From positions 1 to 43,732 of the forward strand of contig PHFX01000013.1 of the NCBI GenBank assembly GCA_007618135.1: a DNA stretch of 43,732 nt. Reading direction: 5' to 3'. Of this stretch, positions 6,585-12,695 are shown in pieces; positions within the stretch are counted from its first letter, which is position 1, and each line of letters begins with the position of its first letter. The position numbers and the translations under genes were made by a program. A model generated the notes under the pieces. The model saw only the letters and a list, made by a program, of their open reading frames with translations, had not been told where the DNA came from and ran no database searches. This DNA comes from Candidatus Brocadia sp. WS118 (lineage in GTDB: Bacteria; Planctomycetota; Brocadiia; Brocadiales; Brocadiaceae).

Positions 6585-6630
6585 TTGACCTAATTGGCAC
6601 GATTCGATTATAATGAACGATTCGAACGAT
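6585..6630 (+). promoter_or_regulatory. promoter and operator of the toxin-antitoxin pair
   Basis: A -35 box TTGACC (6585-6590) and a -10 box TATAAT (6609-6614) are spaced 18 bp apart. The -10 box is flanked by two copies of ACGATTCGA (6599-6607 and 6617-6625), a layout suited to autorepression by the antitoxin. Transcription would start near 6620, which rules out an ATG at 6613 and supports the one at 6649. Confidence 0.7.
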
Positions 6631-6648
6631 ATTAATAAGGTCACAATA

Positions 6649-6909
6649 ATGGATGCACTTTCTGCCAATGAAGCAAAAACTCAATTTGGCGACATGCTGT
6701 TAAAAGCGCAGCGTGCCCCAATTCAAATTAACAAAAACGGGAAACCAGTTGCTGTAGTCATCTCGATGGATGAATACGAAAGCATTGAGGCGCTCAAGCT
6801 TCGATTTTTGCAATCGAGAGCCGTCCAAGCCCAAATGGATATCAAGGCGGGCAACATCGTTGATGGCGATTCTTTTTTTGGTACATTAGAAACTGATCAG
6901 TACGACTAA
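6649..6909 (+). CDS. antitoxin, Phd/YefM family
   Basis: This 86-residue antitoxin would neutralise the ParE-like toxin encoded next and repress the operon. The N-terminal fold shows the family pattern LSANEAKTQFGDMLLKAQ and then PVAVVISMDEYESIE (about residues 5-48). The C-terminal tail, from about residue 60, would bind the toxin. I chose the ATG at 6649, preceded by AAGG (6637-6640), because an upstream ATG at 6613 overlaps the -10 box. The stop overlaps the toxin start by one base (TAATG). Confidence 0.88.
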   Translation: MDALSANEAKTQFGDMLLKAQRAPIQINKNGKPVAVVISMDEYESIEALKLRFLQSRAVQAQMDIKAGNIVDGDSFFGTLETDQYD

Positions 6910-7217
6910 TGCCTGGTTTTCGTTTAACCCCAGATGCTCAGACCGACCTTATTGAAATACGCCGTTTTACGATCAGACAATGGAGCAAAGCGCAGTCGCA
7001 AAAATATTTATCAGAACTTCAGCAAACGATTCGATTGCTGGCTGAAACACCTTCTCTCGGTAAATCAAGGCCAGATGTTGGACCGAACGTATTAAGTTTT
7101 CCCTGCTCAAGTCATGTCATTTACTACGTTGTGTATGAGCAACAATTGGTTGTATTCGGCGTATTGCACAAACGCATGGTGCCATTTAACCACCTTACTG
7201 TGCGAGAGGCGTTTTAA
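6909..7217 (+). CDS. parE: toxin, ParE/RelE superfamily
   Basis: This 102-residue toxin opens with FRLTPDAQTDLIEIRRFTIRQWS, the typical ParE start. It continues with LLAETPSLGKSRPDVGPNVLSFPCSSHVIYYVV and ends VFGVLHKRMVPFNHL. ParE toxins poison DNA gyrase, while related RelE toxins cut mRNA; the N-terminal pattern and the missing RelE catalytic residues favour ParE. With the antitoxin it probably kills plasmid-free daughter cells. The gene is translationally coupled to the antitoxin. Confidence 0.87.
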   Translation: MPGFRLTPDAQTDLIEIRRFTIRQWSKAQSQKYLSELQQTIRLLAETPSLGKSRPDVGPNVLSFPCSSHVIYYVVYEQQLVVFGVLHKRMVPFNHLTVREAF

Positions 7218-7270: not shown

Positions 7271-7615
7271 GTGCCGATTTCTCTACGTTTATTTTTCTAT
7301 AGGGCTTATACAACCCTCCTTACGCTAAAGATAATCGGGACAGTTTATTTGTTATCTACACTACAAAATAAAAATATCGGTCGATTTTTGACGGAATTAG
7401 CCAGGATCCTAGCCCTTTCTGTTGTTCGGGAACATGCTTTATTACTCGCTATCCAACGACCGGAATACAATATTTGCGGTCTTCGTCGTTCCGATCTGAA
7501 AAATTATCTTCTTTATGTTTCCGTCGGATAGCTCTCTCGATACCTCAAACGTGTCGCTAAAACCTACCGATACTATCTAACGCGTAATGGTCGAGCAGCT
7601 GTCGCAACCTGTTAA
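7271..7615 (+). pseudogene. decayed gene with in-frame stop, winged-helix-like C-terminus
   Basis: The open frame (GTG at 7271) runs to a TAG at 7529-7531. The same frame then continues LSRYLKRVAKTYRYYLTRNG to a TAA at 7613-7615. Together the segments GLRRSDLKNYL, SRYLKRV and KTYRYYLT look like the end of a winged-helix-type protein that has lost residues and gained a stop. I cannot name the family, and no intact copy is visible here. It is probably an inactive remnant between the toxin gene and the partition locus. Confidence 0.45.
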
Positions 7616-7738
7616 AAAATAACAGCATTTACCATTTTTTAAATCATTTACTTAATCCCCCAGGATTTTCTGGAGACATATTTTCTTGACATCATTTAAC
7701 TTGTAAGAGACTAAAACCCTAAATTATATTAATATTTA

Positions 7739-8374
7739 ACGTACTACTATACATACGTACATATATTTTAACGTAAACTATTAGAGAAAAATCCATTGTA
7801 CGTACAAACGTACGTGATATATTAAAGCAACTATACAAAAGTTTCATCTTGTATGTACGAATGTACGTTATTACGTCCTGACGTTATATTGACCTCATAA
7901 AAACATGATTCTTTTGCGTTCTCAATCAGGACATCTTATAAAGATTCTAGTATTAACGTACAACTATACATACGTATATATGTTAATACATCAATACGTA
8001 TTAACGTTAGACATTACGTGAAAATTCATTTAACGTACAAATGTTATGATATATTAACGTAACTATATAAAGGTATCACCGTATATGTACGATTGTACGA
8101 TTGTACGATTGTACGTTATTATGTATTGACGTTATCTGGGCCTCATAAAATATGGCTCATTTGCGTACTAGATCAGGATATCTTACAAAGATTCTAGTAT
8201 GAACGTACAAATATACATGCGTACACATGTTAATACATTAATACGTATTCACGTTAAATATTTTGTGAAAATTCAATTAACGTACATACGTTGTGATATA
8301 TTAACGTTATAATATAAATGTATTTTAATATTGGTACATTTGTGCGTTAATATACAACAACGTTTAAGGGCTTC
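7739..8374. repeat. three tandem copies of the parA upstream region (ACGTAC-rich, candidate centromere/operator)
   Basis: There are three imperfect direct copies: 7739-7954, 7955-8201 and 8202-8374. Each starts AACGTACNA, contains GATATATTAA and ends near a CTCATAAAA/CTTCATGAAA block. Copies 1 and 2 end in TCAGGA(C/T)ATCTTA and GATTCTAGTAT. In copy 3 this terminal block is the parA start codon region, so copies 1 and 2 look like old duplications of the parA promoter-start region. Motifs AACGTACA and TGTACGTT occur many times, with TGTACGAT three times in a row at 8095-8118. A role as partner-protein binding site (centromere and operator) is inferred from position. Confidence 0.8.
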
Positions 8375-9049
8375 ATGAAAATCATTACTATAGCCACGCA
8401 GAAAGGGGGGGCAGGAAAAACAACTCTTGCTACAAATTTAGCAGTTGCAAGTGCAATGGCTAATAAAATCACATTGTTAATTGATGCGGATGCCGGACAA
8501 AAAACAGCCCTTGAATGGTTTCAAAAACGAGAGGATCAGAATAATCCACTTGTTATGGAAGCATCAGATCAAAATATGCTTTTTAAATTACTAGAATTAG
8601 CAGAAGAAAAGGGGGTAGATAGAGTTTTTATTGATACTCAAGGCGCTGATACTCCTCTTGTGAATGATGCGATTTCACGTTCTGATTTTTGTCTTATACC
8701 TTGTGGTTCTGGTGGTTTTGATGTACCTGCTCAACGTACCACTGCATCTGTAATTAGACGATTAGGGAAAAATGGTGCTTTTATTATCACGAAAGCTCAA
8801 GCAAGAGGACAAGAAGCAAAAGAAACTCGAATTATATTATCGGGACTTGGTTTTGGTAGTCCTGAGCAACAAACTACGAATCTAAAGGTGTATAAGGACG
8901 CTGCAATATGTAGTCTTTCGGTTCTTGAGTATGATCCTAAAAGTAAGGCTGCAGAAGAAATAAAGGTTTTGTTTAAATGGCTAGAGAAAAAGATTGCTAT
9001 AAATCCTCTTTTAATAGATTTAGAAAAAGGAGTTTCTGAAAATGGTTAA
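8375..9049 (+). CDS. parA: ParA-type plasmid partition ATPase
   Basis: This 224-residue Walker-type ATPase has a deviant Walker A motif, KGGAGKTT, at residues 10-17. LLIDADAGQKTALEWF and FIDTQGAD (Walker B region) follow. It has no N-terminal DNA-binding extension, so it is of the small, type Ib kind. It would drive plasmid segregation together with the small protein encoded by the overlapping next gene. AAGGG lies just before the ATG. Codon use is more AT-rich than in the trb genes. The upstream triple repeat is the likely binding site of its partner. Confidence 0.9.
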   Translation: MKIITIATQKGGAGKTTLATNLAVASAMANKITLLIDADAGQKTALEWFQKREDQNNPLVMEASDQNMLFKLLELAEEKGVDRVFIDTQGADTPLVNDAISRSDFCLIPCGSGGFDVPAQRTTASVIRRLGKNGAFIITKAQARGQEAKETRIILSGLGFGSPEQQTTNLKVYKDAAICSLSVLEYDPKSKAAEEIKVLFKWLEKKIAINPLLIDLEKGVSENG

Positions 9050-9338
9050 TAAAAAAAGAATAAATGCTCTTGCTTCTCTCGCTGAAGATATGAACGTACA
9101 AACACATGTACGTACAAACGAAAAAAAAATAAGTAGCATTCCCAATGAAACAGGACCAAAAGTAAAAACAAAGAGTAGGGTGGTTAGTAATGTTCCTTGG
9201 TACCCAAAGAGCGAGATTCTAAAAAAGGAACTGAAATTATTAGCTATCCATGAAAATTCTAGTCTTACTGCATTAATTGACGAAGGTATTAAATTGGTTT
9301 TAGAAAAGCGAGGAAAGGATATAAATGATTATCTATAA
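9042..9338 (+). CDS. small partition partner, probable ribbon-helix-helix protein
   Basis: This 98-residue protein overlaps parA by 8 bp, with AAAAAGGAG before its ATG. The N-terminal half is basic and unstructured-looking. The C-terminal half (PWYPKSEILKKELKLLAIHENSSLTALIDEGIKLVLEKRG, about residues 53-92) has the pattern of a ribbon-helix-helix domain, like centromere-binding proteins of type Ib partition loci. It probably binds the ACGTAC motifs upstream of parA. Two such motifs also lie inside this gene at 9093-9119. Confidence 0.75.
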   Translation: MVNKKRINALASLAEDMNVQTHVRTNEKKISSIPNETGPKVKTKSRVVSNVPWYPKSEILKKELKLLAIHENSSLTALIDEGIKLVLEKRGKDINDYL

Positions 9339-9339
9339 C

Positions 9340-9369
9340 TTTTAACGTACAAGTATTTGTACGTTAAAA
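9340..9369. promoter_or_regulatory. perfect 13-bp palindrome after the partition genes
   Basis: The arms TTTTAACGTACAA (9340-9352) and its complement (9357-9369) flank a 4-base GTAT loop. It repeats the AACGTACA motif found upstream of parA, so it may be a further partner-protein site. It could also stop transcription, but no T-run follows on the plus strand. Confidence 0.7.
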
Positions 9370-9478
9370 CGTAATAATTAATCATTAGAGAAGAGTGCAA
9401 TAAAATTACTGTCGTAATGGATGATAAAAGGTACTTGTATACTTTTTCTTTGTAACATTTTTATCCTTAAATCATCGG

Positions 9479-9829: not shown

Positions 9830-10218
9830 AGTTGCTAATATCTTTAATTATCAAACGCGATTAAGTCAATTACTCAAAGTTTTGTTTTCTGTTTTTTTCT
9901 TGGAGTTAATTTTTTTAGTTTGTTTTTTACAATAAATAGTATTTAGGTTCAAATGAAATGAAATTGATTTAAGTTTGATTTCAGGTTATTAAAATATAAG
10001 TTGATGCAATACCTTATGTATTATTGTTATATCGTCTTAGATGTGCCTTAAAGTAGTTGAATGAAGCTTTTATTTCTTTGATGTACCTTTTATTTTACTA
10101 TTGTTCTTGATGTGTATAATTTGGAAGTATTTTAAATATAATCTAGGTGGTTATAAAGACATATTACAATAAAGTTCAGAATGTTTTTATATGATTAAAA
10201 GAAGAAAAGAATAGAAAG
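9830..10218. other. AT-rich non-coding stretch next to the iterons
   Basis: I see no gene or RNA here. The stretch is strongly AT-rich with long T runs on the plus strand. Because it adjoins a DnaA box and the iteron array, it is a plausible DNA-unwinding region for replication, but only by position. Confidence 0.4.
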
Positions 10219-10227
10219 TTATCCACA
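10219..10227 (+). promoter_or_regulatory. DnaA box
   Basis: TTATCCACA is an exact match to the strong DnaA box consensus. It lies 53 bp before the first iteron, as is usual in iteron origins that need host DnaA. Confidence 0.8.
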
Positions 10228-10280
10228 GGTAGAATAGTATATATTATCAATTACTTGTGTGAAAAAAACTGGTTTAACTG

Positions 10281-10576
10281 CTGGTCAAACCTATATCCCA
10301 GCTTTAAACTGCTGGTTAAACCTATATCTTCTTAGTTTATCTGCTGGTTAAACCTATATCATCTTCCGGTTAAACCTATAACTTCTTAGCTTTTCCGCTG
10401 GTTAAACCTATAACTTCTTAGTTTAACTGCTGGTCATACCTATAACATATTTATTATCTGCTGGATAAACCTATAACTATTAGCTGGTCAAACCTATAAC
10501 ATTTGCTGGTTAAACCTATAACTTCTCAGCTTATCTGCTGGTTAAACCTATAACATTTGCTGGTTAAACCTACCAC
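10281..10576 (+). repeat. oriV: oriV iteron array, 11 direct repeats
   Basis: Eleven direct copies of a 17-bp iteron (consensus CTGGTTAAACCTATAAC) start at 10281, 10312, 10344, 10366, 10398, 10430, 10461, 10484, 10506, 10538 and 10560. Start-to-start distances are 22-23 bp or 31-32 bp, about two or three helical turns, so all copies face nearly the same side of the DNA. Variants are CTGGTC (copies 1, 6 and 8), CTGGAT (7) and CCGGTT (4), and copies 1-3 end in TATATC. Iterons bind the Rep initiator and also limit copy number by handcuffing. The array lies just past the 3' end of rep, and the last copy touches its stop codon. Confidence 0.93.
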
Positions 10577-11643
10577 TATGTTTTTTTGATAACTCGTATG
10601 CCTGATTTTTGCGCTATTGTTCTTATATCAGTTGTTCGTTTGTTAGAAGCTATTTGTTCTTTAATGAATTGTGGTGTTGCTTTAATTGTATATTTTATAT
10701 CTGTTATAGCTCGTCCAATTTTACGTTCGTTAATTTTACAGCTAAGAATCACGCCTTTTTCTTTTAATTCATTAAAGGCTGATAGAATTTTGCTTCGATT
10801 GTTTCCTTCTTTATTCTGTTGTAATAGTCCACTTGCCTGTTTTATATCTGAATACATACATGAATATTCTGTGATGTGGCTGGCTTGGGTAAAGCGGTTG
10901 ATTAGTCGTTTGTATAGCCATCGGGTTAGTTGCTCATCACAACTCATCAAGCGATCATAGTTAAATTGTCTATAATCAAGGTTGTTTATACTGTGGCTGA
11001 TGAAGAGAGGTAATCTTGCGATGTGATGTGTATCGGTAGAAGCGAGGTATTCCTCGCGACCAACGGTTACAAGATCTTGTAGAATGGCGCCGCTCCATAT
11101 TTCTTTTTTATTCTTATATAGGGCGATATTACATTTGTTCATGACCTCTATAGCTTGCTTGATTTCATCAATGCTTCTTGATCGTCCCTTTGTTTTAAGT
11201 GCTTTTTGTATCATTCCTAATGTGAATTTAATCCAACTTTCTGTTTTTTCAGGGTCATGAATAGCATATTGCTGATCACTAAATATCTTTTTTAGCGCCT
11301 CTTCTACAAGTTCTTCTGTGACGCCTGGAAAAAAAGCTTTGTATTTTCTATCTTTTTGTTTAATCAATGCCGGTTGAATCGAAACTGTGTATTCGTTTCC
11401 ATTTTCCGTATAGGCCCATTCGTACGGTTCTGCTAGCCCATCAATAGTACGCAGCTTTTCGACTTGTTTAGCTGTAAAGAAATACTTTGGTATTCGCTCC
11501 CAAAGCTCAATCGTGTTAGAAACCTGACTTTGATCATTGGTTACAAATTGAGAAAATAAATCAAGCTGTAAGCTTTTTATAGGATCTTTGGGTGGCTTTT
11601 TCATTTGTTTGATTGTGTTTATTAAAACTGGCACATTTTTCAT
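10576..11643 (-). CDS. replication initiator Rep, iteron-binding
   Basis: This 355-residue protein shows motifs of plasmid RepA/TrfA-like initiators: IELWERIPKYFF near residue 47, ADQQYAIHD-like DQQYAIHDPEKTESWIKFTLGMIQ, RSRSIDEIKQAIEVM and IARLPLFISHSINNLDYRQFNYDRLM. The C-terminal part looks like a winged-helix repeat (SDIKQASGLLQQNKEGNNRSKI, then ITDIKYTIK). It would bind the adjacent iterons. I chose the ATG at 11643 because GGGAG lies 10 bp before it; a TTG 9 bp upstream sits directly on that site. Its promoter is probably at 11721-11750. The exact incompatibility group cannot be fixed by eye. Confidence 0.88.
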   Translation of the reverse strand: MKNVPVLINTIKQMKKPPKDPIKSLQLDLFSQFVTNDQSQVSNTIELWERIPKYFFTAKQVEKLRTIDGLAEPYEWAYTENGNEYTVSIQPALIKQKDRKYKAFFPGVTEELVEEALKKIFSDQQYAIHDPEKTESWIKFTLGMIQKALKTKGRSRSIDEIKQAIEVMNKCNIALYKNKKEIWSGAILQDLVTVGREEYLASTDTHHIARLPLFISHSINNLDYRQFNYDRLMSCDEQLTRWLYKRLINRFTQASHITEYSCMYSDIKQASGLLQQNKEGNNRSKILSAFNELKEKGVILSCKINERKIGRAITDIKYTIKATPQFIKEQIASNKRTTDIRTIAQKSGIRVIKKT

Positions 11644-11720
11644 TAAAAGCAAACTCCCTTTATAAACCCTAAAAATGGATTAGAAGGTTTTTTTACTTAA
11701 ACCCTTCTTTGCCAAATTCC

Positions 11721-11786: not shown

Positions 11787-12695
11787 TTAATCACCTTTAA
11801 TTGTTTTTCCAAACGTAACGAGCTTGTTGAGTAAATAGGCTAATTGATTTTTTTCTTCTTTACTTAACAGCGTCAGTGTTTTATCCAGAACACTGTTTTT
11901 ATTATTTATAATTACATAAAACTCATCGATCAATTTTACCATTGTAGCCATTGGAGGAATGGATTTAGTCACCGGATTAGAATTCACGGATACAGCAGTT
12001 ACATCTTCATGAGTAATATCATTTGATTCTTGATAATGTGTATCTTTATTTTTTATAAATTCGCGGAAAAGTCTAATTGAACTGCGAGTTATCTCTTGAT
12101 CTGGATTATTTAACCATTTAGTTAATCTTGCTTGATCCTGCTTGTAAGCTCTTAAGAGATCGTTAATAACGATCACATCACGAATTTCACCCGAATTGAA
12201 TAATTTCGCGATTGGATCAGGTAAATTCAGTAAATTGAGATGTTGTGACACAAACGCTTCCGATTTTCCAATTTCGTTGGCAACTTCCACGCTCTTTAAC
12301 CCTTTGGATACCTGCCGACCGATAAAATCGGCTATTTCTCTTGGCGTTAAATTGTCTCGTTGCAGGTTCTCAATCAATTGATCTGATTGCGTATAATCTG
12401 AATCAATGAATGCAGGGATTGATTCTTTCCCGGCAAGAATAGAGGCACGAAAACGACGTGCCCCATGATTAATGATGAAATACCCATCCTTTTGTAAATT
12501 GGGATGCACAGAAATGGGTGTTTTTACTCCACGCAGACGAATAGTATCTGCAAGCTCCTGTAAGGTAACGGGGTCAAATTCATTACGAGGCTGATTAGGG
12601 TCTTCTTCAATTAAATCCAAGGCCAGTTCTAGTGAGGCTACTGTGCTGATTTTATCTTTTTGAGTTGTTTTTAATGTTCCAGCTGTTTTCTTCAT
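11787..12695 (-). CDS. korB: KorB/ParB-family DNA-binding protein
   Basis: This 302-residue protein (RP4 KorB has 358) has the ParB N-terminal pattern: LIEEDPNQPRNEF near residue 29, VKTPISVHP, and INHGARRFRASILAG near 74-88. ENLQRDNLTPREIADFIG then precedes a helix-turn-helix, SVEVANEIGKSEAFVSQHLNLLNLP (about 134-158). The acidic linker and C-terminal dimerisation region follow. In IncP plasmids KorB is both a global repressor and the centromere-binding protein. Here no IncC/ParA gene sits beside it. It diverges from trbA, with the control region at 12696-12934 between them. Confidence 0.88.
   Translation of the reverse strand: MKKTAGTLKTTQKDKISTVASLELALDLIEEDPNQPRNEFDPVTLQELADTIRLRGVKTPISVHPNLQKDGYFIINHGARRFRASILAGKESIPAFIDSDYTQSDQLIENLQRDNLTPREIADFIGRQVSKGLKSVEVANEIGKSEAFVSQHLNLLNLPDPIAKLFNSGEIRDVIVINDLLRAYKQDQARLTKWLNNPDQEITRSSIRLFREFIKNKDTHYQESNDITHEDVTAVSVNSNPVTKSIPPMATMVKLIDEFYVIINNKNSVLDKTLTLLSKEEKNQLAYLLNKLVTFGKTIKGD

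Follow-up and report, generated by a model that had tools for sequence, protein, structure and literature searches.

The DNA directly upstream of parA in the window (the whole stretch of 43,732 nucleotides analysed here) is built of three tandem copies of one module. The window belongs to a Nitrosomonas-related genome and, judging from its genes, is a conjugative plasmid backbone (Table 1); stretches near-identical to it occur in Nitrosomonas sp. Nm84 and in the MAG ACE_PRO54. A Phd/YefM antitoxin and ParE toxin pair is encoded at 6613-7217, upstream of the putative partition site, and in the related locus L024 a ParD-ParE pair adjoins that locus's own site, in reversed orientation. Between the toxin genes and the array, an 86-aa ORF (7271-7531) stops early in comparison with the 104-aa ORF at the equivalent place in the orthologous locus L022, for which no Pfam match was obtained. 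On the other side of the cassette, the minus strand at 11787-12695 codes for a KorB-like ParB, with no IncC-type ParA seen adjoining; the plasmid has two kinds of ParB-like protein.

The Walker motif of the ParA adjoining the array occupies residues 9-17, and matches to AAA_31/CbiA begin at the N-terminus. Against the NCBIfam equivalog model NF041546 (ParA_partition) the protein scored 134.8 bits over the full model, where the curated cut-off is 180, so that it is a relative of this family below the level of membership. The parB gene lies directly 3' of parA and overlaps it by 8 bp; its product matched PF20605 with 29.2 bits (cut-off 27.2). An AlphaFold model of ParB was of low confidence (pLDDT 63.6) and was left out of the argument. 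The features by which type Ib ParABS cassettes are recognised, i.e. a small ParA without the N-terminal HTH, a small ribbon-helix-helix (RHH) gene directly after parA, and upstream repeats overlapping the presumed promoter, are all present here. Type Ib centromeres are normally located upstream of the operon (PMC5016525), and the repeats on which the RHH protein assembles the partition complex are those through which it represses the operon, or lie next to them (PMC9499535, PMC5016525, PMC7308502).

The region 7736-8374 consists of three tandem units of 217, 247 and about 175 bp. The local alignment score was 150 for units 1 and 2 (dinucleotide-shuffle maximum 34), 154 for units 2 and 3 (maximum 37) and 45 for units 1 and 3 (maximum 34). 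Self-similarity is therefore above background for every pair, and the sequence-only reading was right that the parA promoter-start region exists in three tandem copies. The array is common to three Nitrosomonas assemblies, being identical in L021 (Nm84) and 96.5-97.7% identical in L022, and is therefore no assembly accident; it was not found elsewhere in the genome. As the paralogous units are 69% (1/3), 78% (2/3) and 80% (1/2) identical whereas orthologous units share 97-98%, the triplication is old and predates the split of these plasmids. Informative sites among the three units split 24/22/9, a nearly balanced distribution that favours no branching order or conversion tract.

Table 1. Features of the partition cassette and its surroundings (positions in the window)
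Feature	Position	Strand	Description
Conjugation genes			TraI/MobA-type relaxase, NikA-like protein, TraL, TraM, TrbB-like ATPase
Unit 1	7736-7952	+	217 bp; A1 7738-7777 (5 octads), 21-bp gap, B1 7799-7814 and 7816-7895 (12 octads, one 1-bp slip), decayed leader, spacer
Spacer after copy-1 leader	7897-7952	.	octad-free, not parA-derived
Unit 2	7953-8199	+	247 bp; A2 7955-8010 (7 octads), 21-bp gap, B2 8032-8143 (14 octads), leader whose start-codon position reads ATA, spacer
TGTACGAT run	8086-8117	-	TGTACGAT x3.8 (8086-8115), equal to four consecutive octads AACGTACA ATCGTACA ATCGTACA ATCGTACA
Spacer after copy-2 leader	8145-8199	.	octad-free, not parA-derived
Unit 3	8200-8374	+	175 bp; A3 8202-8257 (7 octads), 21-bp gap, B3 8279-8366 (11 octads), stops 8 bp before parA start
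TATAAT	8308-8313	+	possible -10 element, in unit 3 only (units 1 and 2 read AACTAT); L023/L024 likewise have TATAAT
parA	8375-9049	+	224 aa, Walker-type ATPase without N-terminal HTH extension
parB	9042-9338	+	98 aa, RHH C-terminus (PF20605), predicted to bind the centromere and to act as autorepressor
Octads in 5' coding part of parB	9093-9124	+	AACGTACA AACACATG TACGTACA AACGAAAA
Downstream site behind parB	9340-9375	.	30-bp palindrome 9340-9369, octads in register 9344-9375

Within the units the smallest element is an 8-bp tandem repeat, the octad, composed of an informative tetramer, A[C/T][G/A]T, and a 4-bp AT-rich spacer; the information content at octad positions 2-5 is 0.68, 1.04, 1.35 and 0.74 bits, and at most 0.26 elsewhere. 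As words of the ACGTAC and TGTACG kind were in excess, the region was tested for periodicity. By autocorrelation over the array, lags 8, 16 and 24 were the top three among lags 1-40 (z 6.5, 5.5 and 4.9). The lag-8 signal persists in L022, in each unit taken separately (unit 1 being the weakest) and after removal of the exact TGTACGAT run, and no such signal was detected in the flanking DNA, in parA or in 9850-10250. In each unit exactly 21 bp part a block A of 5-7 octads from a block B of 11-14 octads, which gives about 56 octads within 630 bp (7738-8366). All 21 ACGT sites inside the six octad blocks share one register; at most six of them were used in placing the blocks, leaving 15 free, and although the sites are partly non-independent, the units being mutual copies, unit 3 alone and the sites of L024 each give the same result. 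The two 16-bp length differences between units correspond to two octads each, and so do the 16 bp by which block B2 differs in L022, where two of the TGTACGAT repeats are absent. The words ACGTACA/TGTACGT occur nine times in the array (shuffles: mean 1.05, maximum 5) and five more times in 9040-9400, out of 18 in the whole window and 260 in the 5.04-Mb genome. Thus ACGTAC motifs have indeed accumulated here, as had been claimed, and the TGTACGAT tandem is real, but the element that was multiplied is the octad and not ACGTAC as such.

We take unit 3, which adjoins parA, as the working promoter/leader. Its leader block (-30 to +6 around the parA ATG) is matched by that of copy 2 (P<0.001); copy 1 compared directly with copy 3 gave P=0.08 and is joined to it through a strong match to copy 2. 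In both outer copies the ATG has become ATA. The approximately 52 bp of spacer that follow the start-codon position match each other in units 1 and 2, and not the parA codons; a parA coding remnant, tried as a candidate in both spacers, aligned no better than shuffles (P 0.3-0.96). As there is no homology to parA codons past the start, the duplicated block stops at about the start codon. The proposal that copies 1 and 2 are decayed parA-start blocks hence holds for the leader and the start position, with copy 1 linked via copy 2, but not for any part of the coding sequence. Both spacers also contain ATCTTaTAAAGAT-like dyads. Regarding expression signals, no convincing -35 element was found for parA, and a promoter scan gave nothing above chance, i.e. 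no clear sigma-70 promoter, on the plus strand adjoining the gene. The octad array overlaps this putative parAB promoter.

Octads are also present within and behind parB (Table 1). At the equivalent place in parB of the related loci L023 and L024 there are four good octads, and such intragenic octads were seldom matched when synonymous codons were permuted (P=0.001, 0.009 and 0.017; for those of the window, P=0.001). L023 and L024, whose ParA proteins are 74-75% identical to that of the window, have one upstream block only, some 95 bp long and with TATAAT placed comparably to unit 3, and their octads stand in register at three places: in this block, in parB (four) and in a 44-bp palindrome behind parB (two). 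Since the single-copy relatives also have octads, the octads are older than the triplication of the unit. The single block of L024 compared with unit 3 gave P=0.056 by shuffle test, a suggestive value, so the direction from one copy to three rests mostly on parsimony. Close relatives were sought more widely: PLSDB, searched by DNA and with the RHH protein, gave short parA matches only or none, a single-sequence search of viral contigs gave none, and neither did other genomes of the phylum at E<=1e-30.

A more distant relative, L025 (a Methylomonas MAG contig; ParA 63% and RHH protein 40% identical), carries octads of a different sequence, with GTAAT/GTATT words and without ACGTAC. Lags 16, 32, 24 and 8 rank first upstream of its parA, where GTAAT octads build up a 57-bp palindrome that is perfect over its two arms of 28 bp (L025:60-116). 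The residues before the first RHH helix read PWYPK in the proteins of the ACGT type and SFHLN in L025. Different octads alongside a diverged RHH protein are what would be expected if this protein reads the octads; the direction fits a joint change of box sequence and RHH residues, two groups being too few for a claim of covariation.

Several known systems resemble the locus in part. The TP228 parFGH cassette, like the one described here, has a small ParA, a small RHH partner (ParG) and a centromere, parH, upstream of the operon. The spacers of parH are 4 bp long, giving an 8-bp pitch there as well, and its tetramer is ACTC, in contrast to A[C/T][G/A]T in the window. Degenerate tetramer boxes parted by AT-rich spacers, the makeup of the window octads, are characteristic of parH too (PMC7308502), and TP228 has further repeats between the centromere and the genes (PMC5016525). 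The three tandem promoter-containing units and the sites inside and behind parB set the window apart from TP228. The ParF and ParG structures gave no sequence match at the thresholds used, and ParG was not matched at E up to 1 in a PDB profile search. MetJ provides another parallel, as its RHH dimers sit on tandem 8-bp met boxes with an ACGT core; MetJ is, however, a metabolic repressor with a few boxes, which do not form a partition site.

In the pSM19035 delta/omega/parS system, as here, the ParB is an RHH protein, the binding repeats overlap promoters and the sites are present in several copies. There are six parS sites of 7-10 repeats, and the promoter-overlapping repeats serve as both operator and parS (PMC9499535). 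However, these repeats are 7-bp heptads, whereas in the window lag 7 is below the shuffle mean (z -3.2) and lag 8 far above it, and in pSM19035 the copies are spread over the promoters of separate genes (copS, delta, omega), while those of the window are the promoter of one gene in tandem. In the parCAB system of the Myxococcus plasmid pMF1, repeats bound by ParB are likewise found upstream of the par operon as well as behind it (PMC3235114); its proteins and iterons are different, and we saw no tandem promoter triplication described for it. In R1 parC, direct repeats around the par promoter similarly act as the centromere (cited in PMC5016525), but the system is of type II (ParM/ParR) and the repeats flank one promoter.

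Based on these observations, we suggest that 7736-8374 probably serves a plasmid partition cassette of type Ib as centromere and autoregulatory region, with a parH-like architecture in which the promoter/operator module has been triplicated. Dimers of the 98-aa ParB would occupy neighbouring octads throughout each block, with a single dimer on every A[C/T][G/A]T tetramer; they would repress the parAB promoter in unit 3, and the resulting partition complex would be moved over the nucleoid by ParA. An ancestral single module, consisting of block B and the leader as in L023/L024, might have gained block A and then been copied in tandem to yield three units. Having lost the start codon and TATAAT but kept the octads, units 1 and 2 would be binding arrays and act as centromere only, with unit 3 as both operator and centromere, and the octads in and behind parB would extend the complex over the whole cassette. 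As four contiguous repeats are enough for ParA activation in pSM19035 (PMC9499535), the number of octads here would exceed that minimum. Concerning an advantage of three units over one, we conjecture that the surplus octads may give higher occupancy or plasmid pairing. The unit spacings of 217 and 247 bp, which are not whole multiples of octads, count against this explanation.

Alternatively, the three units might be neutral debris: a mutable, AT-rich stretch of repeats would have been duplicated in tandem at random and with no gain in function, only unit 3 being in use. The loss of the start codon and TATAAT from units 1 and 2 would agree with this, as would the differences of whole octads between close plasmids, which slippage would produce. 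Nevertheless, units 1 and 2 have kept all 14 ACGT sites of their blocks in register at a paralogous identity of 69-80%, the length of the 21-bp gap has been preserved, and the motif columns of units 2 and 3 are slightly more conserved than the others (0.89-0.92 versus 0.82-0.83, a small difference). We therefore regard neutral debris as unlikely.

Quite unlikely, too, is that the array serves as an operator only, repressing parAB or neighbouring genes, while the true partition site lies elsewhere, e.g. behind parB or at the sites of the KorB-like protein. The octads do stop directly before the parA start, the small upstream block of L023/L024 could be a plain operator accompanied by a separate palindrome downstream, and the plasmid does encode a KorB-like ParB. 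On the other hand, some 56 octads far exceed the likely need of repression, and both the usual position of type Ib centromeres and the double role of the pSM19035 repeats, as described above, speak for a partition site before parA. That the repeats are replication iterons is highly improbable: they are direct repeats on a plasmid, a few kb from a replication gene, but a separate array of GGTTAAACCTATAAC (10272-10572) directly adjoins the rep-like gene (10576-11652, minus strand, 358 aa), and octads occur together with parA-RHH pairs in phage contigs and in distant plasmids. The 358-aa protein had no Pfam match above the cut-off and no NCBIfam match, and beside its GGTTAAACCTATAAC iterons it is probably an undescribed replication initiator.

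The reading of the array as a triplicated centromere gains context from other cassettes. For a non-redundant set of 63 loci, taken from genomes and viral contigs (ParA mostly 27-35% identical), the best lag among 5-12 was determined in the 200 bp before parA; it was 8 in 36 of the 63, compared with 3/55 and 4/59 control regions. The same test, unchanged, on 19 plasmids chosen for diversity gave lag 8 as the best in 13 (control 2/18), for which the binomial probability at a chance of 1/8 is 2e-8, with the reservation that the chance is not quite the same for every lag and that the set includes related plasmids. The partner genes in the examined loci are mostly RHH-like (several weakly, one without a match) or so annotated. 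The box varies by lineage, e.g. TGCG in L052, GCAT in L045 and AGCG in L083. Strong 8-bp periodicity with differing boxes directly upstream of parA was seen in L031, L041, L043, L052, L081, L083, L115, L116, L121, L128 and others. The 8-bp periodicity appears to be common to small-ParA/RHH centromeres in general. This octad rule is a more general result than the triplication.

Among the loci tested, only the window plasmid and its two orthologues showed a tandem duplication of the size of the array; next in strength came short upstream repeats in L029 and L041. In the last 200 bp before parA, L041 has a 56-bp (seven-octad) tandem duplication in its octad array, which parallels, independently and on a small scale, the growth of a centromere by duplication. 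Searches of open papers gave none on the tandem duplication of a partition site. It had been supposed that the site grew by duplicating its own promoter, and that a centromere built in this way would be unusual. The three tandem promoter/leader modules and the one-block relatives agree with the former, the centromere role itself being deduced. As to the latter, type Ib partition sites as a rule overlap their own promoter (PMC9499535, PMC5016525), so that only the large-scale triplication is unusual: the promoter-overlapping RHH centromere is an already known type, of which the triplication is an unusual variant.

Taken together, it seems somewhat more probable than the opposite that small-ParA/RHH centromeres of plasmids and phages consist of lineage-specific boxes that recur in tandem every 8 bp immediately before parA, and that here the whole promoter-operator-centromere module was triplicated, the outer copies losing their expression signals and keeping the octad register. 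If so, centromeres could be found, and their boxes paired with the RHH protein, by sequence alone. A constant pitch with differing boxes would offer a route to locating type Ib centromeres and to studying the joint change of RHH proteins and boxes, which bears on plasmid incompatibility. The single-block relatives and their three-unit counterpart might constitute a natural experiment in bacterial centromere growth, with promoter function apparently retained only beside the gene; in this Nitrosomonas plasmid lineage, a centromere would have grown by copying its own promoter.
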